Notes under the pieces: model-generated
Databases searched by the model: none
Seen by the model: the letters and a program-made list of their open reading frames with translations, nothing else
What the model was told of the DNA's origin: nothing
DNA from: Macrolepiota albuminosa
Taxonomy: Eukaryota > Basidiomycota > Agaricomycetes > Agaricales > Agaricaceae
Reading direction: 5' to 3'
Length of the DNA: 64,000 nt
Assembly (NCBI GenBank): GCA_027475525.1
Contig: JAMWFC010000090.1
Coordinates: 186,001-250,000, forward strand
Part shown: positions 31,835 to 59,352 of the stretch, in pieces
Position numbering within the stretch: the stretch's first letter is position 1
How the letters are laid out: the number at the start of each line of letters is the position of its first letter
Program-made: the position numbers and the translations under genes

Positions 31835-31867
31835 TAATATCAAGACTCTCTCCTTACACCGTTCTTG

Positions 31868-37866: not shown

Positions 37867-37966
37867 NNNNNNNNNNNNNNNNNNNNNNNNNNNNNNNNNN
37901 NNNNNNNNNNNNNNNNNNNNNNNNNNNNNNNNNNNNNNNNNNNNNNNNNNNNNNNNNNNNNNNNNN
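37867..37966. other. Assembly gap of 100 N
   Basis: By comparison with A2 (43610-44339), the gap hides about 650 bp of A1 RT core, the left target duplication of A2 and the first two bases of the A2 5' LTR. Confidence 0.9.
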
Positions 37967-38750: not shown

Positions 38751-38763
38751 TAATATCAAGACT
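38751..38763 (+). promoter_or_regulatory. Self-priming site of A2 (Tf1 type)
   Basis: TAATATCAAGACT begins at the first base after the LTR. It is the exact reverse complement of AGTCTTGATATTA at 38386-38398, placed 28 bp after a TATA box. In Tf1/sushi-type elements the folded 5' end of the mRNA primes at this position. No tRNA-type TGG site is present. Confidence 0.7.
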
Positions 38764-38783
38764 CTTTCCTTACACCGTTCTTG

Positions 38784-41700
38784 ATGGCTACGTATACTCA
38801 CACCTACTACCCCACGGGGTACCAGACCGACCCTTACGGACGCCCGGTACCCGACCACTACTCCGCACAGACCCCCCGCCCTGTCTACCCACCCCTCCCA
38901 TACGAACCTCAGTACCTCCACCGCCACTGGGCCCCCGACCCATCCTTCTATGATCTGGGGCCCTCAGCCAGTTGGGCCCCTCCGCCCAACCTAGCCATGG
39001 CACGACCCGTGGAGGTCCCCTCGTACCGGAGCATTCCCGGGGGCCTGCCGGAGACCCCTCCTGTACCCAGTGGGCCTCGCCCGATTCCCCCCAGCGAGGG
39101 CCCCTTTGCACCCACCCCCTACTACGGTTACCAGCGCCCCGTCCCCCAACCCCGAGAACCCCGAGGACCCCCCTACCCCGACTACCCCCCTCGTCATCAC
39201 CCGGCCGCCGCTCCACCCGCTCGAACCCCTCCCTCGCCAATGGGACGACGACGCCTCGAGGAGTATGAACGGCAACGGGACGAGATACTCCGCTCCCTCA
39301 GGATCTCACCGGAGGACTTCGCGCAACGGACGAGGACGCTGCTCGTGGAATTCGGGCACGACGACTTCGAAGGCACTCCGGAGGAATGGGCTCACTGCCT
39401 GGTCGAATTCGGGATCGCCTCACGCGAGGAGAACTCCCGGAGCAAACCATGGTAAAGTATAGGCGCAACACGATCCTCCGGGAAGAATTAATCGCCTCAC
39501 GCGAGGAGAACTCCCGGAGCAAACCATGGTAAAGTATAGGCGCAACACGATCCTCCGGGAAGAATTACAGCAACTGCTCGACGAAGTCCACGCGTCCCCC
39601 TCCCCTCGACCCCTCAACGACCCCGCGGACCCAGGTCGCTCGATTCACATTCGACGGGAACCCCCGGAACCGGCCCAGCAGTCCCGGCAGCCCCCACGGT
39701 CCCCACTCCGGAGCAACGGCAACGGGAAGAACGGCAGAACGCCTCAGCCATACTACAGTCCCGGCAGCCCCCACGGTCCCCACTCCGGAGCAACGGCAAC
39801 GGGAAGAACGGCAGAACGCCTCAGCCATACTACGGTCCCTCAACCCGACGGGAGGCCTCTTCGATCAACCCGCTGCTCGCACGGTAGGCTTGTCAACTCG
39901 CCGCAGGGCTAACTCCGTTCCTAGTACCTTCGAGACCTGGGGACAGCCTCAAAGACCCCTGGAACCCCTCCCGCGAACAGACAACGCCCGACCCCCGGCC
40001 CCGACGAACCCCGGTACAGCCCGGGTGGACACCCCTAGTACGGACGACACGTTATGCTACATTGACGAGCTCACGCGCGATAACAACGAACAACGTCCCG
40101 CGCCCGCGCCCGCCCCGGCACCAGCACCGCCCGCCACGTCCGCCCCGGTCCCTCCGGAACGCAACTTCCGCCGCGATCCGCCACCCCACTTCGACCTACG
40201 GAACCCCCCGCGACCCCCGATGCAAGCCCGACCCTCCCGGAATGAACGTCCCCCGCGCAACCCGGCACCCGACCCAGCACCTAACCCCCCTCCGCCCGAC
40301 CCGACACCGCCGAACCCTCCCCGACCGCCTCCGCCACCCCCAGCTGAACCTCGAGGACGACCCCCAGGCCCTCCACCCCGCCACTCCCGGCGTGGAGACC
40401 CGGCCCCCCTCCTGGCAGGAACGAACCCCCTTGGGACAACGGGCCTCCCGGGCGTGGCCACTCCCGGCGTGGAGACCCGGCCCCCCTCCTGGCAGGAACG
40501 AACCCCCTTGGGACAACGGGCCTCCCGGGCGTGGTCCCCCAGGTGAGCCGCCCGGAGGAGGACCTCCCGGCGGGTGGGGCCCCGCCCTTGGTGCTTTTCC
40601 TCCTCAGGGAGGGGGGGTAATCATTACTACTACTATTACAACGCTGGCCCCCCTCCCCGTAACGCTGCCGGACCGGACGACGCTCGCGAGGGGGTAATCA
40701 TTACTACTACTATTACAACGCTGGCCCCCCTCCCCGTAACGCTGCCGGACCGGACGACGCTCGCGACGCCCTCGCCCGCGAAGGACGCCTAGACATTCAG
40801 AAACCTGATGCGTTCACGGGCCGGGACCCCCGGAAATGGCGTACCTTCCTCACCCAGTGTCTTAACACGTTTCAGGCAAAGCCGCTCACGTTTCAGGTTG
40901 ACAGCTCCCGGGTGGCCTTTGCCGCCTCGTACCTCCAAGGGATCGCCTTCGATCACTACACGGCCCTCATCCAGTTCGACCCCAACAACCCGGCACTCGC
41001 CCGCTGGCAAGCCTTCGTCGACGAGTTCTCCGGGAAATTCGGGATATACGACACCGTGGCCGAGGCCGAGGACAACCTCTTCAACCTCCGGATGCGCTCT
41101 GAAGAACGTTTCACGACCTTCATCGTACGTTTTGAAAAGGAAGCTTACGAGACAGGTTGGAATTACAGCGCCCTCCGGTACGCCCTCCGCCGCGCCCTCC
41201 CACAACGTATCAAGGACGTCCTCCGACTCGCCCCGAAACAACCCTCCTACGACGGATACAAGGCCCTCGTCATGCAGATCGACCAGCGCTACTGGGAAGA
41301 CCGCAGCGAGTATTCGAGCTCCCGACTCCCCTGGAACCCTAGAGGAGGACCCCCTTGGCCCTCCGGCGAAGCTCCCAACCCCCAAGGTCGAAACCCCGGT
41401 CCCCCCGCGTTCCCTGGCGGCCGACCCCCGGTGAGTCGCGGCCCGCCCAATGCTAACCCCGGCAGCGGCACCCGCCCCCAGGCCCAGCTCAACGCCGCCG
41501 TGGCCACCCAAGACCCGGGCGACGCGCCAAGCCCCGAGGAACCCCCGGGAGACCCCGAAGACTTCGACTTCGACGACGAACGGGACGAGGAGGCCCTCCG
41601 AGCCAACCGGCTTCAAAAGAAGGGACGACCCTGGATCGAGGTCCCGACGGATGTGCAGGAACGACGGAGAAGGGAGGGCGTCTGCATACTCTGTGGTGAG

Positions 41701-41814
41701 AAAGATCATTTCATCTCCGAGTGCCCCAAACGACAGGTCATGGGACGTGCCACCTGGACCTTCGAAGGGGAGGACGCTACCTACGAGTATTCGGAAAACG
41801 ACCCGGCGATTTAG
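38784..41814 (+). CDS. A2 Gag with four tandem duplications and a 1-bp deletion
   Basis: Same layout as A1 Gag without the solo LTR: HTYYPTGYQTDPYGRP start, SLRISPEDFAQRTRTLL, proline-rich spacer, capsid core (KWRTFLTQCLNTFQAKPLTF; FDPNNPALARWQAFVDEF), acidic hinge, CILCGEKDHFISEC knuckle, stop TAG 41812-41814. Following the frame codon by codon, the breaks are 77-bp duplications at 39414, 39679, 40380 and 40613 plus one missing G at about 39413 (GGG where A1 has GGGG). Without these it is a single frame of about 900 codons. Role: virus-like particle coat and RNA packaging. Confidence 0.8.
39414..39567. repeat. 77-bp tandem duplication in A2 gag (VKYRRNTIL)
   Basis: 39414-39490 repeated exactly at 39491-39567. 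A one-base deletion relative to A1 sits at its left edge. Confidence 0.9.
39679..39832. repeat. 77-bp tandem duplication in A2 gag (spacer)
   Basis: 39679-39755 repeated at 39756-39832. Confidence 0.9.
40380..40533. repeat. 77-bp tandem duplication in A2 gag (PGRNEPPWDNG)
   Basis: 40380-40456 repeated at 40457-40533. Confidence 0.9.
40613..40766. repeat. 77-bp tandem duplication in A2 gag (GNHYYYYYNAG)
   Basis: 40613-40689 repeated at 40690-40766. Confidence 0.9.
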
Positions 41815-44800
41815 ACCCGGAAGACGCCCTAAATCGCGGAATCGACCCCGACGTCTTCTCCGCCCCGGTCTCGCACCTTCGCTCTACGACACTCATACAG
41901 GACACCCCTCACGGCTTACCTACCCTCCCACTCTTCGCACTCCCTCCTCCTCAAAACCACCCGCCTCACCCCCTCCGAACTCCCCTCAACACCCTCGTCG
42001 ACAGTGGCGCCACCGACAACTTCATCGACGAAGCATGGTCTACCCTCGCCCCGGAACCCCCCTCAACACCCTCGTCGACAGTGGCGCCACCGACAACTTC
42101 ATCGACGAAGCATGGTCTACCCTCGCCCCGGAACCCGCCCAGCGACTCCCGGTCCCAGTACGACTCTGCCTCTTTGATGGAGACGCCTCTTCGGCGGGGG
42201 ACATCACCCACTTCGTGACCAAACTTCACCCTTCCGCACCCCTGGTCCTAGGGCTCCTGTGGCTCCGAGACACCAACCCCCGCATCGATTGGCGACACCT
42301 CACCCTTCGCCTGACCCGGGACCCGACCCCCGACGACCAGCAACTCCCCTTCGACATCCCCCACTCCTCAAAACCAACCCCGAAGGACCCCCCGGACGAG
42401 CCCCCACCACCCCCCGGACTCCAGTCCCGCTCGTCCCGATCCTTCGTCATCAATGCCAGGCTGGACGGCACCCCGGGACCGATATCGGCCCTTATCGACA
42501 GCGGAGCCACCGGAGTATTCATCAGCGACGCTCTCGACCTCCCCCACGACTCCCTCGACCAGCCCCTCCGCCTGCAACGCCTCGACGGCACCCCCTCCTC
42601 CTCCGGCCCCATCCAAAGGTCTCACTCGGGACGCGTGACCCTGGACAACAACTACGAGTTCACTTCCGACTTCCTGGTCACGCGACTTCACGAATCGACC
42701 CCGATGGTGCTGGGACTGCCCTGGCTGCGCGACACGAACCCCGACATCGATTGGAGGGCGCTCACCATGACCTTCCCGGGACCCGAAGACCACCCCTCGA
42801 CCGCCGTGCACCTCCGAGCCCTAGGAGGCGACCCGACGCCCGACACCCCCGGGACGACTGCCGCGCCCCCCCGCATGCCTCACCCACGCCCGTCCGAGAC
42901 CTCAAGGCCCCTGATCGACCCCCAAACATTCCTCGGAACAAGTACAAACGCATGCCTCACCCACGCCCGTCCGAGACCTCAAGGCCCCTGATCGACCCCC
43001 AAACATTCCTCGGAACAAGTACAAAGGGCCGAACTACCCCTGCCGGTCTCAGACACGCGTCACACCCGCTCCGGCCGATGCCTCCGCGACCCCGACCGAC
43101 CCGAGCGCACTCGACATCAAGATCATTGGGGCCGCCCCCTTCGCCCGCCTCATGAGGGACGGGACTCCCACGTTTCAGCTGCACACCTCGCCTTCTCTCC
43201 CGGAAGAACACCTACGAGGGGACGCCATTCCCCCGGAGCAGAAACCCGAGGAGCAAATCCTCCGAGAAGTAGTTCCCCCGGAGTATCACGAGTTCGCTGA
43301 CGTATTCTCCGAAGGAGACGCCAAGGAGATCCCCCCACCGCCCCTATGATCACACCATCGACCTCGAGGAAGGAGCCACCCCCCCTTTCGGCAAGGTCTA
43401 CAACATGCCCCTCACCGCCCCTATGATCACACCATCGACCTCGAGGAAGGAGCCACCCCCCCTTTCGGCAAGGTCTACAACATGTCGGAGGTCGAACTCC
43501 GGGCTCTCAAGGACTACCTCGACGAAATGCTCGGTAAGGGATTCATCCGACCCTCCGCCTCCGCCGCCGGGGCCCCGGTTCTATTCGCCAAGAAGAAGGA
43601 CGGCTCGCTCCGACTCTGTGTCGACTACCGGGGACTCAACAAGATCACCAAGAAGAACCGCTACCCGCTCCCGCTCATCGGCGATCTGGTCGATCGACTC
43701 CGCAGTGCCAAGGTCTACACGAAGATCGACCTCCGCTCCGGTTACAACAACGTCCGCATCGCCCCGGGACACGAGTGGAAAACCGCGTTCCGCACGCGGT
43801 ATGGTCTGTTTGAGTACCTTGTAATGCCTTTCGGAATGACTAACTCCCCCCCCACGTTCCAATACTTCATGAACGACATCTTCCACGACATGAGCGACGT
43901 CTTCGTGATAGTCTACCTGGACGACATCCCACGTTCCAATACTTCATGAACGACATCTTCCACGACATGAGCGACGTCTTCGTGATAGTCTACCTGGACG
44001 ACATCCTCATCTATTCCGACTCGAAGGAGGATCACCAGAAGCACGTCCGGCAAGTCCTCGAACGCCTCCGGGAGCACAACCTCCACGCCAAGCCCGAGAA
44101 GTGCTCCTTCCATACGGAAGAGGTTGAGTATCTTGGCGTCATAGTATCCCCGAACGGCGTTCGCATGGACCCCCACAAGGTCGAGGCCATTGTCAACTGG
44201 CCGCAGCCCCGGAACGTCAAGGAAGTACAGTCCTTCCTGGGTTTCGCTAACTTCTACCGGAGGTTTATAGACAACTACTCCGGGATTACGAAACCCCTCA
44301 ACCGGCTCACGCGCAAGGACATCGCCTGGAACTGGGACAGTAAGTGCCAGAGCGTCTTTAACTTGCTCAAGGAGGCTTTCACAGTCGCCCCGGTACTCCG
44401 GCACTACGATCCGGCCCTCCCGATCATCCTGGAATGTGACGCGTCCGACTACGCCATCGCCGGGATCCTCTCACAGATGGAGCCTGACGGTGGGGAGCCC
44501 CGGCCAGTCGCTTTCTACACCCGGTCCATGATCGACGCCGAGCTCAACTACGACATCTACGACAAGGAGCTCCTCGCCATCGTCGAAGCCTTCAAGCAGT
44601 GGCGAGCCTACCTCGAGGGAGCCCGACACCGGGTTCAGGTCTACTCGGATCACAACAACCTGCAGTACTTCACCACGACCAAACAGCTTAGTCGACGACA
44701 GGCCCGATGGTCCGAGATCCTCTCGGAATACGACTTCACGATCCAGTATCGCCCGGGACGCCTTGGCGCCAAGCCCGATGCCCTCACCCGTCGACCGGAC

Positions 44801-46448
44801 GTCTACCCCAAGAAGTCATTCGAGGCGGAGCGCAATGCGTTCAATCATCGCGTGGTGATCCCTCCCGAACACCTGAATGCCGTACTGATCTTAAACGACG
44901 AAGGAACCCTGAACCAGATCCGCCGCGCTCCCCGGGACAAGTACTTCACCGATCACGACCCCCGAAACCCTTCCGACGGAACCGACCGGGACCCCGCCTT
45001 CTCTTTGTCCCCCGACGAGAAACTCCTCCGGGACGGCCGCATCTACGTCCCGGATCACGCCCGACTTCGCTACGACGTCCTCCGTCAACACCACGACCAC
45101 AAGCTCCGGGGACATCCTGGAATACGTAAGACCCTCCAGCTCATCTCCCGGACTTACTTTTGGCCAGGGTTGAAGAAGGACGTGACCCGTTACATTCGAT
45201 CATGCGAGCCCTGCCTCCGGGCCAAGGTCCCCCGACACCGACCGTACGGACTCCTGAAACCCCTGCCGGTCGGACGACGCCCCTGGTCCTCAATATCTCT
45301 GGACCACATCGTCGAGCTCCCGGAATCTGAAGGGTTCGATGCTATTCTCGTCGTTGTGTGCAGGCTGACCAAACAGGGCATCTTCCTACCCTGCCACACC
45401 ACGGATACCGCCCCGGACTTCGCCCGGCTGTTCCTCGAGCACGTCTTCGCCAAACATGGACTCCCGGACGACATCGTCTCCGACCGTGGCCCCCTCTTCG
45501 TGTCCAAGTTTTGGACTTCCCTGTGTAAGGCACTTGAAGTCCGGACGACATCGTCTCCGACCGTGGCCCCCTCTTCGTGTCCAAGTTTTGGACTTCCCTG
45601 TGCAAGGCACTTGAAGTAAGACTAACCTCTCTACCGCCTACCACCCCGAAACCGACGGCCAAACCGAAAGGGTCAACCAGTCCCTCGAGCAGTACCTCCG
45701 ACTGTACGTCAACTACTTGCAGGACGACTGGCGCGCCGAGCTCCCCCTGGCCGAGTTCACCTACAACAACACGCCGCACTCTGCCACCGGGGTATCCCCT
45801 TTCTTTGCCAACAAGGGATACCACCCTCGACTGACACTCTCGCTCCGGGACATCCCGTCACACGCCGCCCACGAGGTCGCCCGGGATCTCCAATCCCTTC
45901 ACAAGTTTCTCCGGGAAGAGATCGACATCGCGAACCGGGCCTACGTGAAACACGCCGACCGGAAACGGGAAGACACCCCCGACTGGGCCCCCGGGACAAA
46001 GGTATGGTTAGATCGACGACACCTCCGCACCCGCCGGCCCTCTCCAAAACTCGATCACAAGCGTCTCGGCCCGTTCAAAATATTGAAGAAGGTCTCATCC
46101 CACGCCTACAAGATCGAGCTCCCCCCGGGACTAAAAGGTCTGCACCCGGTATTCCACGTCCGCCTCCTGGAACGACACCCCCCGGATCCCTTCCCTGAAC
46201 GACGCCCTGAGCCCCCTCCCCCGGTCGAGGTCGAGGACGAGTACCACTACGAAGTCGAAGACATCCTCGACTCCCGGAACATTCGTGGACGACCCCACTT
46301 CCTCGTACGGTGGAAGGGATACGGCCCGGAAGACGACACTTGGGAGCCGCGCCGAAACCTCGATGGCGCCCTCGACAAACTCCGGAACTTCCAACAACGG
46401 CACCCGGGGAACGATCTTCCCGGGCGCAGGACTCACAGACGGCAGTAG
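41804..46448 (+). CDS. A2 Pol: tandem proteases, RT, RNase H, integrase, chromodomain
   Basis: Begins in the -1 frame over the gag stop. Protease 1 ([12 protein letters not shown], about 42000-42300) has lost 18 residues after DITHFV. Protease 2 ([13 protein letters not shown], about 42490-42760) is complete. RT about 43490-44280 has [19 protein letters not shown] and intact YLDD. RNase H about 44400-44770 has [22 protein letters not shown] and [10 protein letters not shown]. Integrase about 45080-46130 has [28 protein letters not shown] and [10 protein letters not shown]. The chromodomain at 46240-46390 ([18 protein letters not shown]) probably targets chromatin. Breaks: 77-bp duplications at 41982, 42872, 43336, 43851 and 45464, and one missing A at 45618 relative to A1. 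Confidence 0.85.
41982..42135. repeat. 77-bp tandem duplication in A2 protease 1
   Basis: 41982-42058 repeated at 42059-42135. It creates two apparent copies of [14 protein letters not shown]; the real tandem protease is a different, later domain. Confidence 0.9.
42872..43025. repeat. 77-bp tandem duplication in A2 pol linker
   Basis: 42872-42948 repeated at 42949-43025. Confidence 0.9.
43336..43489. repeat. 77-bp tandem duplication upstream of A2 RT
   Basis: 43336-43412 repeated at 43413-43489. Confidence 0.9.
43851..44004. repeat. 77-bp tandem duplication across A2 RT catalytic loop
   Basis: 43851-43927 repeated at 43928-44004. It splits RT at VYLDDI. Confidence 0.9.
45464..45617. repeat. 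77-bp tandem duplication in A2 integrase core
   Basis: 45464-45540 repeated at 45541-45617, followed at once by a one-base deletion relative to A1. Confidence 0.9.
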
Positions 46449-46703
46449 TGGGCGTAACCCCCGCCTCTGGGCTCAGTAGGGATTCAACTCCCATGTATAT
46501 TTTCTGCTTTCCCCTTTTAGATCTTACTCTCTTTTAGTACTTCCTTCACAGTAACGCCCCGGACGATGGGCAAGGTACACTTTCTCGTTCTTTCCTAACA
46601 CTTTACTTACACTTCGAATACGATGGCCGAATATATACATTTTCTAGGATATACACTATAGTTACAGCTACGGACCAGGAAACCGGCAAGAAAACGGGGG
46701 CCC
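46449..46703. other. Convergent spacer between A2 pol and the antisense gene
   Basis: About 255 bp, T-rich near 46500-46620, between the plus-strand pol stop and the minus-strand stop of the antisense gene. It presumably holds 3' ends for both transcripts. The equivalent A1 spacer is 56257-56523. Confidence 0.5.
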
Positions 46704-47462
46704 CTAGATCTGGGGCCCCGAATCACCCTCACTCCCGCCTCCCCTCGGCCAACCCCGGAAATCCTCCCCCGCCCCCTCTGGACCGTGCTCTCGCAACACC
46801 TCCTCGGCCAGCTGCTCCCAAGACGGGAGCTGCTCGCCCTCGTCCAAAATACGCTCAAACCACGATCCCGGGGCCGGGACGTTCCTCCGGCGGTGCGCAC
46901 CCACCAGCCTCCCCAGCAGATCTAAGCCCCGCTCCACCCCGGGGCTCCCCGCCTCCGACCGCAGCCCCTCTTGGAGAGACGCGAGTGCCGCGGCGGCCCC
47001 GTCGAGGAGCAAACGGTGCTCCCGAGCCCAGCCTGGAAATGTTAGTACGGCCTAGGCATGGAAGGGGGGACACTCACTCAATGAGGCCATGCGCCCAATA
47101 ACCACGTCCCGGCGCAAGGCCTCGACCAACCCCGGGCTCGAGGGACCTCGCTCCGGGAGTCCAACCCCCTGCCCCAGCCTGGCCCTCATGGCGTCCAGCT
47201 GAGCCTCAGCTCCCCCTCGGGCCACCCTCGCCTCCTCCAGCTCCCGGAGGGCCATCTCGCGGTCCTCCTCCAGCCTCCTCCGGAGTGCCGCCTCCTCCCT
47301 CGCCCCCTCCTCGCGCTCCCCCCGCTCCCGGTCGGCCTGCTCGAGGCGCTCCTGCAGAGCCCTCACTTCAGCGTCCAGCGGTCGCCCGGACAGGGGAGAG
47401 AACGTCGCCGGGGAGAGGCGCGCTGAGGAAACCGGGGGCGGGGTCTCGGTGGGCAGACGCGC

Positions 47463-48536
47463 TGATGAGCTCCCATTATAGATGACCACGGATAGCGCCA
47501 ACACAAGCACCTCACATTGGCACACTGGGACCACCAGGAGCGGCACGTCTTAGCGCTCCAGGGGCTAATTTTTGCATATTTTTATGTTAATAACTCGCAG
47601 CTGGAGCCTCTAATTACTCCAGGACCACTCTTTATGGCACCATCTATTCTTAGCACTCCTCTTGACACCTTGCCGCACCTTGCCACTCACCCTTCAGGGC
47701 CATACACGGACACAGACACTTGGCACCCATGATGCTCTTAGCCGGTGGCAGTAGGAATGATGAAGTATTTTATGACAGACAGCTTGGAGTTTCACCTTAG
47801 CACCTGACGTCGCTTAGCTTCTTGCCGACTCAGACTGACAGCATGATTGTGGACTTCTTCACCATATAGTTTAATTCAGGGCATTTACTTACATATAAAT
47901 ACTTACTTTTTGTTAGTAGTACATCATCAATTTGGCAGTAGGGATTGTATCCCAACATTTTGGTCACCCTACGCAACAGACTACCTTTTTGTTGACCGTG
48001 TCGGCAAGGGGACTCTGCTTTAGTTCTCTCTCACCCTTTCTGTCTGCAATCTCTTAGTGTCTTGCAACTACGGCAAGGCATTTGCGCTTAGATCTGCTAA
48101 GCAATCTCGTCATTTTATCATCTCTTTTAGGTGCTAACACTTAGCGCCTCTTAGTGACCCCTTTACAGTGTCTCTTAGCGCCTTTCCTTGGCGACTCTCT
48201 CTCGCGCTCCTTAGCGCCTTTCCTTGGCGACTCTCTCTCGTGCTCCTTAGCGCCTTTCCTTGGCGACTCTCTCCCGCGCTCCTTAGCGCCTTTCCTTGGC
48301 GACTCTTTCCCGCGCCTCTTAGCACCTTTCATTGGTGATTTTTAGCATACTCTTGCCGCATTTTTGGGTCTTAAATAAGCGCCAATCACCCCTTTTCCTT
48401 ACCACCAACCTCTTGCCTACTGTGCGTTCTCTGGGACCTGTCCAGGACTCTCTCCCATACTTAGCGCGTCCAAAGCTATATTGACTAAGTAGCTGTACTA
48501 GTGATAGTGCACCTTAGCGCAATTTGGGCGTCATCA
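47463..48536 (+). repeat. F 5' LTR
   Basis: TGATGAGCTC..GGGCGTCATCA. Contains many TTAGCGC words and a 36-bp tandem array at 48174-48320. Confidence 0.92.
48174..48320 (+). repeat. 36-bp tandem repeat array in F LTR (about 4 units)
   Basis: Unit TTAGCGCCTTTCCTTGGCGA plus CTCTCTCTCGCGCTCC. It is repeated about four times with few changes and duplicated in the 3' LTR (51853-51999). Each unit holds GCGCC and GGCG, able to pair. Not a CRISPR: there are no spacers. Confidence 0.85.
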
Positions 48537-48539
48537 AAT

Positions 48540-48557
48540 TGGAGCCCACCGCGAGGG
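48540..48557 (+). promoter_or_regulatory. F primer binding site
   Basis: TGGAGCCCACCGCGAGGG, three bases after the LTR. It begins with TGG as expected for pairing with a tRNA 3' CCA end. I cannot name the tRNA. Confidence 0.65.
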
Positions 48558-48759
48558 TTCTCTAGGGCAGCATTCCGCCAGAAACCCACCTTTAAAAGGC
48601 AATCTTACCTCATTTTTCCAGTGCCTTGCCGCACTCCCCTTACAGTCAGAAACTACAAGACGCTTGCCACTAGCCAACTGTAGACGATTATTTCTGATAT
48701 ACACTTGCCACTTGCCGTGGTCCCTTGCCAACTCTATTAATTCCCTTGCCACTCCCACT

Positions 48760-50748
48760 ATGAGCCAAGCACGACCCCTTCATATGCCCTTTCGAAATCA
48801 CTTTGCTGCACCTAAATGGGATGAAACCCAACCACGCGAGTTACCACAGTACTTCCAAGAACTAGAGCTCCTTTTCCAGGATTGTGGTATTACCGACTTT
48901 GCCCAAAGGAAGGATTACGCTATCCGTTATGTCTCCTATGACACGGCAGAATCTTGGACAGGTTTACCAGAATTCATCACCTTAGAGCCTGCGCTTGCCA
49001 CCCCCCCAGTTCCCTTAGCACCTCGCCAACATAGCTATCAAGATTGGAAAACAGCAGTAATCAATTTATATCCTGGTGCAGAAGAATCTGCCCGTTACAG
49101 GCTTAGCGACCTCCAGCAGCTAGTGCAAGACACCTTTGCCACTAGCCTGCACACTCTTGGCACATTTTCTACCTATTACCGTGACTTCCAGCGCATCTCT
49201 AAATGGCTCCAGCAACATGGCAAACTTCACATAAATGAAGAGCGTCGCTTATTTCAGCAAGGTATTCCAACCTCCTTATGGACAAAAATGGCACGTCGCC
49301 TAGAGATTCTCATGCCGACACACCATCCCGACGAGTTCTATGACATTGATCAGGTTTTTAAAGCAGGAAAATGGGTACTTGCCGGTACAACCACTAGTGC
49401 CAACACTCTCAGTCCCCTTAGCACCTCCTATTCCCTTAGCACCTCTGAGCCTCTTAGCGCTCATTCTGAGGGTTTTTCTAGCGCTCCCACGGTAATCCAA
49501 GCGCTAAGTGTTAGCGCCTCTGATGATTATAAAGACCTGGAAACTCGAGTTAATGCTGCCTTTGCCGCTGCCATGTCACCAATCGAAAATAGGCTTGCCG
49601 CTGAATTGGCAAGTTACCAGCCCCAGTCGGAAGAACATATAGAGGAAATTTACTATTTTGGGCATGATCAGGACGCCAAGGAACCCCCTCAGCAGGAGTT
49701 TAGGGAACTAGCACGGCAGGAACGTATTGTGCAAATAGAGCAGGAACTGGCAAAGTTACGAGGAATTGCCGCACCAAAAACTACTCAGACCCTTAGCGCC
49801 CCTTTGCCAACACTTAGCGCCACTTCTAGCGCGTCCAGCGCCAGCCTTAGCGCTGAATTTAGGGTGCCACTGGCGACGCAATCCATGGTTTTTCAATCCA
49901 AGCCTCAGAACACCTCTAACGTTAACTTAGCTCTTGCCGAGGCTGCCACTGCCGTACCCCTTAGCGCACCACCTAGCACTCATCCAGCAATGCTTAGCGC
50001 CTCTTCAATGCCTCCTAGCGCCTCCCTTGCCGCTCCTGTGAATGCTCAATCTGAAGTTCCCAACATTGCCGTCAATCTTGTTGTTATTGAGAACAGCTTC
50101 AGTGTTTCCCCTAGCGCACCTCTTGAATCCACCAGTTTACCCCCTAGCGCTCCACCAGATCTTGCCGCACCGCCTAGCACCTCCCTAGCCTTGCCTAGCG
50201 CCTCCCCAGAGTCTCTTAGCGCCTCCTGTGAAGACTCAGTCCTTTCCAATGTCAACTCTCGCACCATAACGTTAGCACCACCTACCATGCCAGCACACAA
50301 TAATCTGCCCACTAGCGACTTCCAGCCCTTAGCGCCAGCTCTTGGCGCTCCTCAGAAGCAGTATGGAGTAGACTCCTTGGCGACGTTGCAAATATTTGAG
50401 GTAGGAACTCAAGTTATTGATTATACTACAGCAACGCAAGTCATGGCAACAGTTGGAGACCTCTGCAGGATAAGCGCACCAACAGGCACTGTCTTAGCGC
50501 CTTCTGAGGATAAAGGCGCCACCATTAGCGCTACCTTTGGCGCTTCCAGCTTGGACAATAATCAGCACTACCATGACCTTCCCGAACTGGCAGTTACTGG
50601 CGACGTTTCAACTTGTTGCCTCAATAGTTCCTCTACTGGCCCTTGCAGCACTACTCTTAGTGATCATAAAGCTTCTGAAGGACCGCTAAGGACCCCCAAT
50701 AAGGTGCTAGTACCTGCACTTGCCGACGTTATTTCAGAAAATGGCTAA
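48760..50748 (+). CDS. F Gag, 662 aa, intact
   Basis: Start ATG 48760 (MSQARPLHMPFRNHFAAPKW); an upstream in-frame extension lacks an ATG. Residues 20-215 resemble the capsid part of Ty3-type Gag: WDETQPRELPQYFQELELLF, an AIRYVSYDTAESW segment, SYQDWKTAVINLYPG, a TFSTYYRDFQRISKWLQQHG helix and RRLFQQGIPTSLW (family resemblance, inferred). The remainder is a serine/alanine/proline-rich, probably disordered tail in which LSAP/PSA motifs recur, mostly encoded by CTTAGCGCC. There is no zinc knuckle and no protease. The product would form particles that package F RNA, with enzymes supplied by another element. Confidence 0.75.
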   Translation: MSQARPLHMPFRNHFAAPKWDETQPRELPQYFQELELLFQDCGITDFAQRKDYAIRYVSYDTAESWTGLPEFITLEPALATPPVPLAPRQHSYQDWKTAVINLYPGAEESARYRLSDLQQLVQDTFATSLHTLGTFSTYYRDFQRISKWLQQHGKLHINEERRLFQQGIPTSLWTKMARRLEILMPTHHPDEFYDIDQVFKAGKWVLAGTTTSANTLSPLSTSYSLSTSEPLSAHSEGFSSAPTVIQALSVSASDDYKDLETRVNAAFAAAMSPIENRLAAELASYQPQSEEHIEEIYYFGHDQDAKEPPQQEFRELARQERIVQIEQELAKLRGIAAPKTTQTLSAPLPTLSATSSASSASLSAEFRVPLATQSMVFQSKPQNTSNVNLALAEAATAVPLSAPPSTHPAMLSASSMPPSASLAAPVNAQSEVPNIAVNLVVIENSFSVSPSAPLESTSLPPSAPPDLAAPPSTSLALPSASPESLSASCEDSVLSNVNSRTITLAPPTMPAHNNLPTSDFQPLAPALGAPQKQYGVDSLATLQIFEVGTQVIDYTTATQVMATVGDLCRISAPTGTVLAPSEDKGATISATFGASSLDNNQHYHDLPELAVTGDVSTCCLNSSSTGPCSTTLSDHKASEGPLRTPNKVLVPALADVISENG

Positions 50749-51132
50749 AAGTACAAAAACATCAATACTTTGCTAAGTCGCCTTTCTTGAATCACCTTTT
50801 GTTAGCTTTCTTACTCTACATTCATAGACAATCTTTGTCACTACCTATACTAAAAATTGTCACCAAGATCACTACCATTTTGTTACCTACTTGACCCTTG
50901 AGTTATTCGTCATTTTTGCACACTTTGTTATATTTTTCATTGATTCGTCACTCGTTTCATATTCTGGCTGCCGAGTTTCTAATGTTTTTAGCGCACCATA
51001 CATTGCCGACATCGCCAGCACCCAGCACACCTTGGCACCTCCATCTCCTCCTTGCCGACTATGCATTCTCTTACCGACTTTCAGATTAGCGACTCTCTGG
51101 AAAAGTGACTGAGGACAGTCAGGATTTCAGTT
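50749..51132 (+). other. F 3' untranslated region
   Basis: No ORF of note; runs to the polypurine tract GGGGGGAGA (51133-51141). Confidence 0.6.
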
Positions 51133-51141
51133 GGGGGGAGA

Positions 51142-52215
51142 TGATGAGCTCCCATTATAGATGACCACGGATAGCGCCAACACAAGCACCTCACATTGGC
51201 ACACTGGGACCACCAGGAGCGGCACGTCTTAGCGCTCCAGGGGCTAATTTTTGCATATTTTTATGTTAATAACTCGCAGCTGGAGCCTCTAATTACTCCA
51301 GGACCACTCTTTATGGCACCATCTATTCTTAGCACTCCTCTTGACACCTTGCCGCACCTTGCCACTCACCCTTCAGGGCCATACACGGACACAGACACTT
51401 GGCACCCATGATGCTCTTAGCCGGTGGCAGTAGGAATGATGAAGTATTTTATGACAGACAGCTTGGAGTTTCACCTTAGCACCTGACGTCGCTTAGCTTC
51501 TTGCCGACTCAGACTGACAGCATGATTGTGGACTTCTTCACCATATAGTTTAATTCAGGGCATTTACTTACATATAAATACTTACTTTTTGTTAGTAGTA
51601 CATCATCAATTTGGCAGTAGGGATTGTATCCCAACATTTTGGTCACCCTACGCAACAGACTACCTTTTTGTTGACCGTGTCGGCAAGGGGACTCTGCTTT
51701 AGTTCTCTCTCACCCTTTCTGTCTGCAATCTCTTAGTGTCTTGCAACTACGGCAAGGCATTTGCGCTTAGATCTGCTAAGCAATCTCGTCATTTTATCAT
51801 CTCTTTTAGGTGCTAACACTTAGCGCCTCTTAGTGACCCCTTTACAGTGTCTCTTAGCGCCTTTCCTTGGCGACTCTCTCTCGCGCTCCTTAGCGCCTTT
51901 CCTTGGCGACTCTCTCTCGTGCTCCTTAGCGCCTTTCCTTGGCGACTCTCTCCCGCGCTCCTTAGCGCCTTTCCTTGGCGACTCTTTCCCGCGCCTCTTA
52001 GCACCTTTCATTGGTGATTTTTAGCATACTCTTGCCGCATTTTTGGGTCTTAAATAAGCGCCAATCACCCCTTTTCCTTACCACCAACCTCTTGCCTACT
52101 GTGCGTTCTCTGGGACCTGTCCAGGACTCTCTCCCATACTTAGCGCGTCCAAAGCTATATTGACTAAGTAGCTGTACTAGTGATAGTGCACCTTAGCGCA
52201 ATTTGGGCGTCATCA
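51142..52215 (+). repeat. F 3' LTR
   Basis: Constant offset of 3679 bp from the 5' LTR at every landmark checked, with identical translations of all internal ORFs. Confidence 0.92.
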
Positions 52216-52297
52216 GCGCCCGCGTCCAAAGCTATATTGACTAAGTAGCTGTACTAGTGATAGTGCACCTTAGCGCAATTTGGGCGTCATCAGCGCC
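52144..52297. repeat. 77-bp tandem duplication at the right end of F
   Basis: 52144-52220 repeated at 52221-52297. It makes the last 72 bp of the F LTR and GCGCC appear twice. Confidence 0.9.
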
Positions 52298-53412
52298 CTC
52301 TTCGACGGCCCTGGGGAAGGGCTTGGCGACGCCCGCCGCTTCCCCTTGTCAGGGCGCCCCCCGCGCCCCTCGCGGCTCCCCCCGGCCCGGGTCGCTCGGC
52401 GCGTGATGAGGACCACGGGCCGGCCCCGGCCCCCCACCCGAATGGCGCCCCCGCTCCCCGACCCCCCTGGACCCGCAGCGGCCACCTCCCCCACCGGCTC
52501 CGTCGCCTCCCCCACCGGCTCCGCGACCCAATCTCGCTCCTCGACCCCCATCCTCCGGGTGACCCCCCCCAGCGGCCACCCCTGCTCCCGGGAGACGCAG
52601 CGCGCCCTCCACAGCGCCGACACGGAACACCTCTCGTGGTTGAGGCGGCATGCCTCACACACGGACGTGTCCCGGCGGGACGAGGGGCCCGGGACCTCGA
52701 ACAGGCAGGGGACCGTTCGGCGAGCGCAGTGGAGGCACTGCGCCAAAGTCAGCAACGAGACCCGAGGTAAGGAAACACTCACCGGTCCATTATTCACGCA
52801 CCAGGCGTGGGTGGGTAGACCCCGGGGTCTCTCCAGGGCCTCCCCAAATAACTCCTGCGTCGCGTCCGCCCACGCAACGCGCTGACCCTCCGGGACTTCG
52901 GATACGGCCCCCACCGGCATCCCAGAACGACGGAAGCGGGGGGCAGGTAACCTGGGGCGGGGAGGGGGTTGAGGGCGGGGAGGGCGGACTGTCATCCGCG
53001 CAAAGGTAGGCGCGGGACGACTCGGGCGGGCCTCCGGGACGTCGCTGGGACCCGCATTGGGAGCAGGCTCCGGGTGCCGGCTGGGACCCGCGATAGGATT
53101 GCTGTGTTGTTCTGAAATAGGAAGGTCAGTGGGATAGGCGGACGACACGGGAAGACACTCACGTTGCTGGGCGAGCTCCGCCACGCGCTCCCGGTCGAGG
53201 CGGGCTCGGTATCGCGCGTCCCGGGCTTCCCACGCCATGAGGGGCGCGACCTCGTTCGTCTGCGGGGGCGTCGGGGAATGCGTTGGCGTACGCGACATAG
53301 TTGAACTTGACGGTAAAATTTTTTTCGATACGTGGCAGGTCAGGTGCCGGATCCCACGGTTGACCCCCGGTCCGAACCACCGGCTACGCGCGCCTCGGAG
53401 GGTCTCGGCGCT

Positions 53413-53425
53413 GAGGGGGGGGTGA
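53413..53425 (+). promoter_or_regulatory. A2 polypurine tract
   Basis: GAGGGGGGGGTGA immediately before the 3' LTR. A1 has AAGGGGGGGTGA at 58544-58555. Confidence 0.75.
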
Positions 53426-54220
53426 TGTCACGACCCCCTCCCTCCGGGCCCACCCCGGGACACCCCCGGAACACCATCCGGGACCCTCCCTCCGACCCCA
53501 CAGGACACGCCCCGCCATCACGACCGCCGACACCGCCATCACGCGCATCAGGACCGCCATCAACCGCCACCGATCGCCATCAGCCAGCCCCCGGGACCCC
53601 TGCATCACAGACCCCGGGATCAACCGCCATCGACGATCGGATCACGCGGCTCGCATCAAGCCATCACGCATCACGCCCCACGCATCACGACTCCCTCCGC
53701 GCCAATTGATCGCGCGCTCCCCACGCGCGATCCCGGTACGCACCCCCTGCCGCTACTCAATAACCCCCGGAACCCATCCCAGACATCCCGGAACCCCGAG
53801 ACCCGGCCCCGTAGTACTTATAGCGTAGTTCCTTGTTGTATTCGCTAGTCTTGATATTGCATAACTGTTACTTGGATATTGCGTGCCCTTTTGTTTGACT
53901 GGTACGCCTCGTTTGGTACGCTTCGACTGGCACGCCTTAGCATTCGCGTGCTATAAGTTTGGTACGCACTTCGCGACTCTTAAGTTACTAACTTGGTCTC
54001 GTCTTAGAACCTCCGGTTCACGACTCGACCCCCTCTAACTCCCAGCCACTTTCATCCAAAACCCCCGGACTCTAGTCCCCTCTCCCGGGATTACCCTGTC
54101 CTCGTCTTGAACCCCGGAGTCCTAGCCCCGGAGTTCCAGACACCCGAGTATCCGTAGATCAAGTCCGCATCGTAAGGGCGTCGCTTTCCCGGAAAGCCCC
54201 CGATTCAGCGGAACCTGACA
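53426..54220 (+). repeat. A2 3' LTR
   Basis: 795 bp, TGTCACGACC..GCGGAACCTGACA. TATA at 53819-53822 and AGTCTTGATATT at 53847-53858 show the same 28-bp spacing as the 5' LTR. A1 pol resumes at 54221. Confidence 0.9.
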
Positions 54221-56256
54221 GTAAGTGCCAGAGCGTCTTTAACCTGCTCAAGGAGGCTTTCACAGTCGCCCCGGTACTCCGGCACTACGACCCGGCCCTC
54301 CCGATCATCCTAGAATGCGACGCCTCCGACTACGCCATCGCCGGGATTCTCTCGCAGATGGAATCTGACGGTGGGGAACCCCGGCCAGTCGCTTTCTACA
54401 CCCGGTCCATGATCGACGCCGAGCTCAACTACGACATTTACGACAAGGAACTCCTCGCCATCGTCGAAGCCTTCAAGCAATGGCGGGCCTATCTCGAGGG
54501 AGCCCGGCACCGGATCCAGGTCTACTCGGATCATAATAACCTGCAGTACTTCACCACGACCAAGCAACTCAGTCGACGGCAGGCCCGATGGTCCGAGATC
54601 CTCTCGGAGTACGACTTCACGATCCAATACCGCCCGGGACGACTTGGCGCCAAGCCCGACGCCCTCACCCGCCGTCCGGACGTCTACCCCAAGAAGTCGT
54701 TCGAGGCGGAACGTAATGCGTTCAATCATCGCGTGGTGATCCCTCCCGAACATTTGAATGCCTTACTGATCTTAAACAAGGAAGGGACCCTGAGTCAGAT
54801 TCGCCGCGCCCCCCGAGACAAGTACTTCACCGATCACGACCCCCGCAACCCCCCTGATGGAACCGACCGGGACCCCGCCTTCTCCCTGTCCCCCGACGAA
54901 AAACTCCTCCTCCGGGACGGCCGCATCTACGTCCCAGATCACGCCCAACTTCGCTACAACGTCCTCCGTCAACACCACGACCACAAGCTCTGGGGACATC
55001 CTGGAATACGTAAGACCCTCCAGCTCATCTCCCGGACTTACTTTTGGCCAGGGTTGAAGAAGGACGTGACCCGTTACATTCGATCATGCGAGCCCTGCCT
55101 CCGGGCCAAGGTCCCCCGACACCGACTGTACGGACTCCTGAAACCCCTGCTGGTCGGACGACGCCCCTGGTCCTCAATATCTCTGGACCACATCGTCGAG
55201 CTCCCGGAATCTGAAGGGTTCGATGCCATTCTCGTCGTTGTGTGCAGGCTAACCAAACAGGGCATCTTCCTACCCTGCCACACCACGGATACCGCCCCGG
55301 ACTTCGCCCGGCTGTTCCTCGAGCACGTCTTCGCCAAGCATGGTCTCCCGGACGACATCGTCTCCGACCGGGGCCCCCTCTTCGTGTCCAAGTTTTGGAC
55401 TTCCCTGTGTAAGGCACTTGAAGTAAAGACTAACCTCTCTACCGCCTACCACCCCGAAACCGACGGTCAAACCGAAAGGGTCAACCAGTCCCTTGAGCAG
55501 TACCTCCGGCTGTACGTCAACTACTTGCAGGACGACTGGCGCGCCGAGCTCCCCCTGGCCGAGTTCACGTACAACAACACGCCGCACTCTGCCACCGGGG
55601 TATCGCCCTTCTTTGCCAACAAGGGATACCACCCTCGACTGACGCTCTCGCTCCGGGACATCCCGTCACACGCCGCCCACGAGGTCGCCCGGGATCTCCA
55701 GTCTCTTCACGAATTTCTCCGGGAAGAAATCGACACCGCGAACCAGGCCTATGCGAAACACGCCGACCGGAATCGGGAAGACACCCCCGACTGGACCCCC
55801 GGGACAAAGGTATGGTTAGATCGACGCCACCTCCGCACCCGCCGGCCCTCTCCAAAACTCAATCACAAGCGCCTCAGCCCGTTCAAAATTTTGAAGAAGG
55901 TCTCATCCCACGCCTACAAGATCGAGCTCCCCCCGGGACTTAAAGGCCTGCACCCGGTTTTCCACGTCCGCCTCCTGGAACGACACCCCCCGGATCCCTT
56001 CTCCGAACGACGACCCGAACCCCCTCCCCCGGTCGAGGTCGAGGACGAGTACCACTACGAGGTCGAAGACATCCTCGACTCCCGGAACATTCGTGGACGA
56101 CCCCACTTCCTCGTACGGTGGAAGGGATACGGCCCGGAGGACGACACTTGGGAACCGCGACAAAACCTCGAAGGCGCCCTCGACAAACTCCGGGACTTCC
56201 AGCAACGGCACCCGGGAAACGACCCCCCCGGGCGCAGGACTCACAGACGGCAGTGA
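54221..56256 (+). CDS. A1 pol, second part: RNase H, integrase, chromodomain
   Basis: Resumes after A2 at [19 protein letters not shown] and stays open to the stop at 56256. RNase [37 protein letters not shown]. Integrase: HPGIRKTL and CEPC zinc motif, [35 protein letters not shown] with all three acidic residues. The C-terminal domain ends in a chromodomain ([32 protein letters not shown]). No duplication or frameshift lies in this part, and it supplies the reference for judging defects in A2. The gap and nested A2 leave it without a continuous RT as assembled. Confidence 0.88.
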
Positions 56257-56523
56257 CGGGCGTAACCCCCGCCTCTGGATTCGGTAGGGATTCAACTCCC
56301 ATGTATACTTTCTGTTTTTCCTTCTTTCTCGCTCCTCTTTATTACCCTTTCCCATCGTAGCACCCGAATTTCTCTCTCCCGCCAAATTACTTACGATGTT
56401 TCTGTCTTTCTTTTCTCTCTCTTTACTTACTTACCTCGGCAGAACAAGTATATACATTTTGATTTACCACTACACTATAGGATACATAACGGGACTGTCA
56501 AGAAAGTTCGGCAAAAAAGACTG

Positions 56524-58351
56524 CTAGTGAGGGGTCTCCAGGCCCCCCTTCCCTCCCTCTCCCCCGCTGGACCGCGACGGCCAACCCCGGGGCTCCTCTC
56601 CCTCCTGCTCCTCCGGAACGTACTCCTGTGACGCCTCCTCTAGCAGCTGGTCCCAGGACGGAAGGGGCTCGCCTTCGTTCAGAATTCTCTCGAACCAGGT
56701 GCCCAGCGCTGGGACGTTCCTCCGCCGGTGTGCCGAGACCAGCCTCCCCAGCAGGTCCAACCCACGCTCCACCCCGGGGGTTGCCAACTCGGGCCGCTGA
56801 CCCTCCTGCAGAGAAGCCAGCGCCGCAGCCGCCCCGTCCAGGAGCAGGCGGTGCTCCCGGGCCCAACCTAGGAAATCAGCACGGGAACTTGGTAGAGGGG
56901 CTCCAACCACTCACTCAAAGCCGCCATCCAGGCGACGACCACGTCCTGCAGGCTCTGGGGGGCCGGCTCCAGATGACCCGTCCCTTGCTCCAGCCGGGCC
57001 CGTAGCGCGTCCCGCTCAGCCTCCAACGCTCCTCGTGCAACCCGCGCCTCCTGCAGCTCCCGAGCTGCCGCCTCCCGGTCCTCCTCCATCCACCGCCGAG
57101 CTGCCGCCTCCTGCCTCACCGCCTCCTCGCTCCGAGCCAGGGTCGTCCGAACCCCCCGCAGGTGTTCAGCTGTGACCTGATGGTGGTCAACCAGCTCCTG
57201 CCTCTCCTGCTTGGCCCGATCCACGCGCTCCTGGAGCGCCCTCACGTCCACACCCAGCGGCCGCCCCGACAAGGGGGAGAAGACCGCCGGAGACAGGTGC
57301 AGGGAAGGAGCCGGGGAAGAGGACTCCCGGGAGAGCCGTGGCTGCTTGGAAGGGCCGGGAGAAGGACTGGGCGACGCCCGCCGCTTCCCCTTGTCGGCAC
57401 GACTTGCCCCGGCCCGGGTTGCCCGGCGCGTGACCAGGACCATGGGCCGGCCCCGACTCCCCACCCCCGCCGCCCCCCTGACCCGAGATCCCCTCGTCGG
57501 GGCAGCGCCTCCCCCGGAACCCTCCGGCGCCCCCACCGGCGGCTCAACCACCCAGTCCCTCTCCTCCACCCCCATCCGGCATGTCAAACCCCCCAACGGC
57601 CACCCCTGCTCCCGCACCATGCAACGCGCCCTCCACAAAGCGGAAACGGAGCAGCGCTCGTGGTTGTCGCGACACGCCTTGCACACCGACGAGTCTCTCC
57701 GGGATGACGGGCTGGGGGCCTCGAAATGGCACGGCACCATCCGGCGAGCGCAGTGCACACACTGGGTCGACGTTAGCGGCGGCCACAAAGGTACAAAGTC
57801 ACTTACCGGCCCGTTACTCACGCACCACGCATGGGTGGGCAACCCCCGGGGCCTCTCAAGGGCCTGCTCGAACATCGACTGCGACACGGCGGCCCACGGG
57901 ATACGCAGATCCTCCGGGACCACCGACACGGTGCCGGGGGCCATCCCCGATCGACGAAAACGCGGGGCGACCAAGCGGGGGCAAGGTGAAGGGGGAGGGC
58001 GGGGGGGTCGGACGGTCATCCGCGCGACAGTGGGCACGGGGCGACTGGGACCCGCCTGAGGGGCTACCGTGGGAACCGACGGCGGGGGACTGACTGGTGC
58101 CTCCGGGGCAGCCTCCGGCAGGCGACTGGGTCCCGCCTCCGGGGCAAGTGCGTTTTGTTGTTCTAAAAAAAGGGAGGTTGATCGGGCCAAGCAAAAAACA
58201 CGCGAATGCACCTACGTTGCTGAAAGAGCGCCGCAACACGCTCCTGATCCAGGCGGCGCCAATACCGGGCATCCCGGGCCTCCCATACGACCAAAGGCGC
58301 GACTTCGTTGGTGGGCGGGGGCGTCGGAGAATGCGTCGGGGTGCGCGACAT
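56524..58351 (-). CDS. A1 antisense gene: Zn-cluster and coiled-coil protein, 560 aa, four exons
   Basis: Exons on the minus strand: 58351-58216, 58162-57807, 57761-56915, 56867-56524, total 1683 nt, in phase, no stop. Introns of 45-53 nt have GT..AG ends; intron 2 has GTAAGT and CTAAC. The protein starts MSRTPTHSPTPPPTNEVAPL. At about residues 165-201 it has CVHCARRMVPC and CKACRDNHERC, spaced C-x2-C-x6-C-x15-C-x2-C-x6-C. This matches the fungal Zn2Cys6 cluster except for a longer middle loop. A basic KGKRRASPSPSPGPSK stretch (possible nuclear signal) and an Arg/Glu-rich coiled coil of about 85 residues follow; the end has SWAREHRLLLDG. It lies opposite to pol, with its start beside the 3' LTR. 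DNA or RNA binding is plausible but unproven. Confidence 0.78.
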
Positions 58352-58371
58352 GGTTGAGTTTGATGGGAAAA

Positions 58372-58525
58372 TTTTTTTTCGATACGTGTCAGGACATGTG
58401 ACGGATCCCACGCCCGGACCCCGGCCCGTGCCACCGTCTACGCGCGCCTTTTTTTTCGATACGTGTCAGGACATGTGACGGATCCCACGCCCGGACCCCG
58501 GCCCGTGCCACCGTCTACGCGCGCC
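58372..58525. repeat. 77-bp tandem duplication upstream of the A1 antisense gene
   Basis: 58372-58448 repeated at 58449-58525, between the antisense start codon and the LTR. Confidence 0.9.
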
Positions 58526-58555
58526 TCGGAGGGTCTCGGCGCTAAGGGGGGGTGA

Positions 58556-59347
58556 TGTCACGACCCCCTCCGGATCCACCCCGAGACACCCCTGGAACCC
58601 CACCCGCTAACCCTCCCCCCGACCCCGCAGAACGCGCCCCGCCATCACTACTACCGGCACCGCCATCACACGCATCAACGGCCGCCATCATCCGTCAACG
58701 ATCACCATCAGCCAGCCCCCCGGGACCCTTGCATCATGGACCCCGGGACCAACCGCCATCAACGATCGGATCTCGCGGCGCGGCCATCACGCATCACGCA
58801 CCACGCATCACAACTCCCTCCACGCCAATTGATCGCGCGTCCCCACACGCGCGATCCCGGTATACAGTCCCTGCCCGCTACTCAATGGCCCCCGGAACTC
58901 ATCCTAGACACCCCGGAACCCCGAGACACGTCCCCGTAGTACTTATAGCATAGCTCCCCACTGTATTCGCCAGTCTGGATATTGCATAACTGTTACTTCG
59001 GATATTGCGTGCCCCTTGCTTGACTGGTACGCCTTGTTTGGTACGCTTCGACTGGCACGCCTTAGTATTCGCGTGCTCTAAGCTTTGGTATGCACTTCGC
59101 GACTCTTAAGTTACTAACTTGGTCTCGTCTTAGAACCTCTGGTTCACGACTCGACCCCCTCTAACCCCAGTTACCTCCAACCCAAAACCTCCGGACTCTA
59201 GTCCCCTATCCCGGGATTACCCCTGTCCCCGTCTTGAACCCCGGAGCCCTAGCCTCGGAGTTCCAGACACCCGAGTATTCGTAGGTCAAGTCCGCATCGT
59301 AAGGGTGTTGCTTTCCCGGAAGGCCCCCGACTCAGCGGAACCTGACA
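58556..59347 (+). repeat. A1 3' LTR
   Basis: 792 bp, TGTCACGACC..GCGGAACCTGACA, followed by CATCT (59348-59352), the A1 target duplication. Confidence 0.9.
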
Positions 59348-59352
59348 CATCT

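Follow-up and report, generated by a model that had tools for sequence, protein, structure and literature searches.

A spliced antisense gene under purifying selection in a family of fungal Ty3 chromoviruses, and its exchange between element backbones

A family of fungal Ty3 chromoviruses carries, on the strand opposite to pol, an antisense gene that is real, protein-coding, intron-containing and under purifying selection. The gene is family-wide, as far as sampled, and has been exchanged between element backbones independently of pol. Its product combines a cysteine cluster with a predicted coiled coil, and the LTRs of the same elements share a repeated, conserved box in U3. We describe the gene and its relatives below and discuss its candidate role as a regulator of the elements that encode it.

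Results

The window, by which we mean the whole 64-kb stretch of DNA analysed, contains element X at 31050..59347 of the plus strand, with LTRs at 31050-31834 and 58556-59347; CATCT flanks the pair on both outer sides, which identifies the two LTRs as one insertion. The continuity of X is broken by an assembly gap (37867-37966), by the related Ty3 element Y, which is nested in it from 37967, after the gap, to 54220, and by element B inside Y. The 3' part of X pol (54217..56256, plus strand) comprises RNase H, integrase, a Tf2-1-like SH3 domain and a chromodomain at about 56056-56208; the Pfam matches RT_RNaseH, Integrase_H2C2, SH3_Tf2-1 and Chromo exceeded their cut-offs and rve fell below its own. 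With its LTRs and target duplication, the order of RNase H and integrase, and the chromodomain, X is a Ty3 chromovirus. Its LTRs differ at 5 of 785 positions (K 0.0064), all five at CpG, and those of Y at 12 of 783, just two of the 12 at CpG. The primer-binding site AATATCAAGACT (31836..31847, plus strand) is complementary to the element's own LTR at about position 410, with 11 of 12 bases pairing in X and all 12 in Y, an arrangement that we take to be Tf1-like self-priming. Self-priming is not found in all chromoviruses; if the element primes itself as Tf1 does, the pairing would place the start of the genomic RNA at about LTR position 410.

B (47463..52292, plus strand) is an unrelated LTR element that interrupts exon 3 of the antisense gene in Y. 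Its LTRs (47463-48536 and 51142-52215) are identical over 1074 bp, have the ends TGATGA..TCATCA and are flanked by GCGC on both sides, and B is possibly a young non-autonomous LTR element. It also carries a 36-bp tandem repeat of 4.5 copies and a 746-codon open stretch (48508-50748) with no Pfam match. Elsewhere the window holds an LTR-like repeat of about 520 bp, whose dispersed copies at 7526-8046, 29055-29575 and 63118-63618 are 87-98% identical, a further Ty3 element on the minus strand (59286-63068) with frames for gag, protease and RNase H, and an inverted repeat (17460-17620 and 18474-18634) with 161-bp arms that are 95% complementary and 853 bp apart. Tandem duplications of 77 bp occur 24 times, 16 of them at 100% and eight at 98%, for example at 58372-58526, 52144-52298 and 33311-33464; many lie within pol, and the relatives L009, L017 and L020 carry them as well. 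They are probably joints of a k=77 assembly and can produce false frameshifts in pol and in the antisense gene. The duplication at 58372-58526 lies just upstream of the antisense ATG and leaves the coding part of the gene untouched.

The antisense gene of X sits between the chromodomain and the 3' LTR and runs on the minus strand from 58351 to 56524 in four exons, giving 1683 nt including the stop and 560 aa; it converges with pol tail to tail, 267 bp separating the two stops. Exon 1 (58216..58351, with the ATG at 58351) is followed by intron 1 (58163..58215, 53 nt, GTAGGT..TAG), the proline-rich exon 2 (57807..58162), intron 2 (57762..57806, 45 nt, GTAAGT..CTAAC..CAG), exon 3 with the cysteine cluster, linker and coiled coil (56915..57761), intron 3 (56868..56914, 47 nt, GTGAGT..CTGAT..TAG) and exon 4, which encodes the C-terminal region and ends in the stop TAG (56524..56867), all on the minus strand and with GT..AG borders in all three introns. 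An alternative donor for intron 1, four bases further downstream, was rejected since it breaks the frame, which the donor at Y's position opens. In Y the gene is divided by B into exons 1 and 2 with the start of exon 3 (52293..53298, minus strand; introns 53162-53112 and 52782-52738) and the remainder of exon 3 with exon 4 (46704..47462, minus strand; intron 47077-47033, stop at 46704). When the two flanks of B are joined, a frame of 1620 nt is open to its own stop, and the introns of 51, 45 and 45 nt stand at positions equal to those of X. The four-exon structure, both of its lengths and the conserved intron positions given in a preliminary description of this DNA were thus reproduced. X and Y differ at about 27% of positions in the 5' half of the gene, against about 5.5% in pol.

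Splice sites are also kept across other copies. In the 20 copies compared for intron 1, and the 21 compared for intron 2 and for intron 3, every mapped intron has a GT donor and an AG acceptor; the mapping failed for intron 1 of L017 and intron 3 of L027. Intron interiors drift in sequence and length, within 49-53, 44-48 and 44-48 nt for introns 1, 2 and 3 when the copies with 77-bp duplications (L009 for intron 1, L017 and L020 for intron 2) are set aside. A CTRAY-like motif, which we take to be the branch site, is kept in introns 2 and 3, and is found for intron 1 in other gene classes, not in that of X.

Exon 3 reads through without a stop in the gene frame of 33 of 35 copies, compared with 1, 0, 0, 3 and 0 of 35 for the other five frames (0, 3 and 0 for the sense frames) and 2.4% in a first-order Markov control; these copies were retrieved by protein similarity in the gene frame, which introduces a mild bias into the count, and Y and L037 were left out here and in the analysis of codon positions. 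The copies differ from one another at 41-50% of third codon positions and at 13-27% of the first and second positions. Over 231 pairs from 22 copies the median dN/dS of the gene (Nei-Gojobori) was 0.26; it was 0.24 for pairs with dS >0.6 and 0.51 in close pairs (dS <0.1), the latter as expected if dead copies drift. Seven cross-lineage pairs gave 0.21-0.29, with bootstrap 95% intervals within 0.17-0.37. Divided by part, the same seven pairs yielded 0.03-0.20 for the cluster, 0.04-0.22 for exon 1, 0.13-0.29 for exon 2, 0.13-0.30 for exon 4, 0.33-0.54 for the linker and 0.25-0.64 for the coiled coil; the lowest values fell in exon 1 and in the cysteine cluster with the 26 residues that follow it, and the linker and coiled coil were mostly highest. 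Pol, with a median of 0.14 against the 0.26 of the gene, is more constrained. Some copies show many changes of Arg to Trp, Gln, Cys or His, as the decay of methylated CpG would give, for example L018 when compared with L012 (26 of 117); in Y, L025 and L033 such changes number just 1-3 of 138-144.

The genome searched was the window's own (100.1 Mb in 129 contigs); it yielded 37 matches to Fungal_trans (PF04082), and the 14 control genomes none, which marks it as fungal. Of 1177 candidate places for exon 3, 138 were scored and gave at least 220 matches, and the genome copy counts are lower bounds because just these 138 were scored. In all 43 distinct copies read (X, Y, L006-L008, L009-L028, L029-L043 and L044-L046), 38 of which had been located via the antisense gene itself, the gene, or most of it, lies opposite and beside the chromodomain; L028 and L037 showed no exon 1, L043 has only the start of exon 4, and among the copies read no gene copy lies away from a chromodomain. 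At L028:3912-4666 an LTR, perhaps a solo LTR insertion, stands between the chromodomain and the antisense gene. A less biased count starts from the chromodomain: at least 118 of 150 scored hits (of 1740 candidates) had exon 3 or exon 4 on the opposite strand within 3.5 kb downstream, as matched against 150 exon-4 places, 138 exon-3 places and 36 places from the first exon-3 search. Three of the 32 hits without an exon match were inspected and the gene was present in all three. A same-strand accessory gene was considered and rejected, as the 150 scored chromodomain hits had no same-strand neighbour.

Many of these frames are open. Among the exon-4 places 14 of 150 rows contain a stop (counted by eye), groups of 7-8 copies share equal top scores with open frames among at least 150 scored gene places, and a simple spliced model gave an uninterrupted frame in 10 of 20 copies, including L023, which has a shifted-looking stretch, and L027, which retains intron 3 in frame. 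The preliminary description had proposed selection on the protein, and had regarded a dN/dS near 1 or the lack of the reading frame in other intact family members as counting against it; the seven cross-lineage ratios lie well below 1, and the gene is present in other members. Outside this genome, no relative of the whole protein occurred among 7992 scored candidates. Profile searches found one protein with exon 3 and six with exon 4, all of source code lgn and on contigs of 0.9-2.1 kb, and no relatives in viral or prokaryote contigs. The outside exon-4 relatives P0002, P0004 and P0005 show an apparent in-frame read-through at the intron 3 site, and the outside relative P0001 at the intron 2 site.

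The gene tree and the pol tree conflict with high support. Gene dS between X and Y is 0.91 and pol dS 0.20, the values for X and L025 are 0.98 and 0.16, and over Y and L024-L027 gene dS to X spans 0.91-1.04 against a pol dS of 0.16-0.27. Several pairs in X's own class have a gene dS below the pol dS (X and L011, 0.07 vs 0.19), and this within-class pattern is itself mosaic. Mean divergence in a 17-copy alignment, which omits L028, L009, L017 and L020 with their inserted LTR or 77-bp duplications and in which an insertion misaligns the integrase part of L024, was 5-10% for the chromodomain, 23-38% for the spacer, 17-26% for the gene and 8-17% for the LTR, a profile that indicates a sharp change at the end of pol. 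In AU tests the pol data rejected the monophyly of both gene classes put to the test (p 8e-50 and 1.3e-4), and two pol clades were rejected by the gene (p 2e-6 and 7e-8); these p values are nominal because the groups were named once the trees had been inspected. We infer that the exchange took place by recombination between co-packaged RNAs, which brought old gene lineages onto one recently spread pol. This exchange is new relative to the preliminary description.

The cysteine cluster C-x2-C-x6-C-x15-C-x2-C-x6-C (57651..57761, minus strand) retains its six cysteines in all 16 sequences of the exon-3 alignment, which omits L019 (stop codon), Y's piece and L030 and includes L029 and L041. PF00172 scored 12.9-20.5 bits in five of six cluster pieces, with none in L028, and did not reach the gathering cut-off of 21; it matched the second half of the cluster best and was seen in 8 of the 16 exon-3 members at E up to 5, the best being 0.082. 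The usual Zn2Cys6 linking loop has 5-12 residues, and the x15 loop here is longer. Of the fungal-type cluster with conserved spacing that had been described, the spacing therefore held throughout, whereas the type is weakened by the score and the long loop; we regard the cluster as Zn2Cys6-like, a label that is good, though not certain. A low-confidence AlphaFold2 model of the cluster (pLDDT 50-58) places short helices at residues 2-7 and 28-33, after each CxxC. Exon 3 residues 169-258 (56988..57257, minus strand) are predicted by AlphaFold2 to form a long coiled-coil helix of 90 residues with pLDDT mostly 91-98, and the stretch between cluster and helix has very low confidence. Part of the region between them, RGRP with the basic stretch DKGKRR..PSPSPGPSK (57333..57455, minus strand), is largely conserved in the exon-3 alignment, RGRP being altered in L018, L026 and L028; RGRP presumably resembles an AT-hook core and the basic stretch a nuclear signal, both as candidates. 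Exon 4 is conserved in an alignment that omits L020 (stop codon) and L032, and its structural model is poor. Foldseek returned nothing significant for the modelled protein parts, nor did sequence and fold searches against solved structures. The Pfam matches listed included neither TRP28 (PF04195; E up to 1 for the whole protein and up to 5 for the 16 exon-3 members) nor bZIP (whole protein and the same 16 members), and no gag or nucleocapsid family was among those listed for the protein.

The U3 of X's 3' LTR (58556..59347, plus strand) is about the first 410 nt of the LTR and begins 205 nt upstream of the antisense ATG. It holds four boxes of the CGG-containing 9-mer CCGCCATCA within 58639..58761 of the plus strand (starts 58639, 58660, 58682 and 58753), the same four stand in the 5' LTR at 31133..31255 (plus strand), and the U3 of Y has three. 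The four LTRs of X and Y account for 14 of the 15 occurrences in the window; the single outside copy, at 10994 just beyond a copia-type gag frame (10056-10712), is probably due to chance. A Markov model gave a mean of 0.08 and a maximum of 2 in 2000 for the four boxes of the X U3, a comparison to be read with the fact that the 9-mer was selected after its repetition was noticed. In 21 LTRs, at least three exact boxes were found in 18, two in L014 and L021 and none in L020. Per base, the first three boxes agree with X at 86-100%; agreement is 94% over the motif columns and 58% over the remaining columns of the same stretch, and two positions of the fourth box are not conserved. Four of 250 mask shifts matched the conservation of the motif, namely the true one and those of +163 to +165. 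The U3 comparison took 17 of the 20 long loci, as L023, L026 and L028 yielded no LTR start or no exon 1. Successive boxes are mostly 21-22 bp apart and lie, in X's 3' LTR, 288-410 nt from the antisense ATG with the 77-bp duplication counted in. No co-variation of the box with gene class was seen, the box being constant across classes in the 21 LTRs.

Discussion

We lean, by a modest degree, towards the view that the gene encodes a regulator acting on the U3 of the very elements that carry it, and that the 3' LTR drives its antisense expression; its transcription, binding and sign of effect we infer, and this role is the best-supported guess, not a demonstration. The U3 of the 3' LTR would act as a two-way promoter, so that U3 would start the genomic RNA in the 5' LTR and the antisense mRNA in the 3' LTR. 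The protein would enter the nucleus, pair via its coiled coil and bind the repeated CGG-containing boxes, by which it would act on both promoters of every genomic copy. Zn2Cys6 proteins often read CGG triplets, and on this preference the box and the protein become a candidate pair. We favour activation or release from host silencing and rank repression lower, because it is at the level of the element that the gene is retained and because CpG decay in some copies looks like the result of methylation. The antisense position would explain the survival of the introns, as the genomic RNA holds their complement, and this is not spliced. In its fullest form the proposal would be that a two-way LTR promoter produces, in antisense, a sequence-specific transcription factor of the family's own, that this factor opens or activates every member via phased CGG boxes in U3, and that the regulatory cassette is swapped between near-identical pol backbones, so that old, divergent regulator lineages persist on one recently spread chassis; as a whole this is a possible but rather doubtful picture.

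The transcriptional role, unproven as it is, is better motivated now that a conserved motif is known in U3, and packaging finds no support here. A nucleic-acid-binding protein could nevertheless act after transcription, in RNA export, packaging, nucleocapsid-like chaperoning or the guidance of the integration complex in the nucleus. Basic, cysteine-bearing, coiled-coil proteins are capable of such roles, which would account for the measured dN/dS equally well; they would leave both the conserved U3 boxes and the antisense, separately expressed layout unexplained, and as the listed Pfam matches include neither a gag nor a nucleocapsid family we consider this unlikely. The boxes themselves could serve a host factor.

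The same protein could also repress its own family as a form of copy-number control, and acting on all U3s it would provide dosage control. HBZ can damp the sense transcription of HTLV-1. The layout matches that of HBZ as far as the source available in part describes it, that is an antisense, spliced, nuclear protein from the 3' LTR (PMC10186651). A family with at least 150 scored gene places and with groups of 7-8 copies in open frames does not look restrained, however, and self-repression seems to us distinctly unlikely. A captured host gene carried as a passenger is disfavoured as very improbable: short introns and a Zn2Cys6-like cluster would fit a fungal host origin, but purifying selection at dS of about 0.9 argues against a recent inert passenger, as does the presence of the gene in 43 of 43 copies read, none of them away from a chromodomain; the gene may still have a distant host parent. 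A chance open frame, for which the GC content of 58-66% in three 2-kb steps from 54001 to 60000, opposite-strand coding and the frequent 77-bp assembly-type duplications might be invoked, is refuted by the stop pattern, codon-position pattern, dN/dS and splice sites, and by sense frames over exon 3 that are seldom open.

If the regulator reading is true, the antisense accessory gene known in plant Ty3 elements and complex retroviruses extends to the chromoviruses of fungi, where its introns are conserved and purifying selection on it has been measured, and the protein and the DNA box provide a testable candidate pair. The family also offers a case of an accessory gene moving between retroelement backbones independently of pol. 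Moreover, the spliced antisense genes of such elements may pass for host Zn2Cys6 regulators in fungal annotation.

Fungal Zn2Cys6 regulators recognise CGG half-sites. The protein described here resembles those of the Gal4 type (PF00172) in its two C-x2-C-x6-C halves, the basic residues between cysteines 2 and 3 and the separate coiled coil, and differs in its x15 loop, its score below the cut-off, the position of the cluster in the middle of the protein and its retroelement-borne gene.

VANDALs are DNA transposons. The VANC anti-silencing proteins of Arabidopsis VANDALs are encoded by the elements and are sequence-specific, with targets that are often tandem repeats, according to the part of the source available (PMC5735166). 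In the fungal elements the conserved, repeated U3 box would be a candidate target; in the portion of that account at hand, the target repeats vary between related VANDALs, whereas the U3 box is constant.

HBZ of HTLV-1 is described, in the available part of its source, as an antisense product of a two-way 3' LTR with spliced and unspliced forms and as a nuclear protein of bZIP type (PMC10186651). On that partial account, the layout is matched by the gene described here, whose splice sites are conserved and whose antisense mRNA would start in the 3' LTR. The chromovirus protein differs in having a long coiled coil only and no bZIP match, in the other kingdom of its host and in its three introns within the coding region, as far as the same source can be compared.

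The term 'antisense' is absent from the main text of a survey of fungal LTR elements (PMC3248453). No fungal precedent was found in the literature searched, most subscription papers lying outside its scope, which is not proof of absence. The nearest counterparts are the plant Ty3 elements Retand, Grande and RIRE2, for which the available part of the source reports antisense genes between pol and the 3' LTR (PMC11963269). These genes occur in nearly all clusters of a lineage and have predicted DNA binding, and the Grande protein is nuclear, again as given in that part (PMC11963269). By this description, an antisense gene between pol and the 3' LTR throughout a lineage is shared with the family studied here. 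The Retand elements, as portrayed there, are non-chromoviruses of flowering plants, mostly with TRP28, whereas the fungal elements are chromoviruses whose protein has no TRP28 match. Relative to the Retand and Grande genes as that partial source presents them, the fungal gene is set apart by its three conserved introns, its cysteine cluster, its coiled coil and its exchange as a module.
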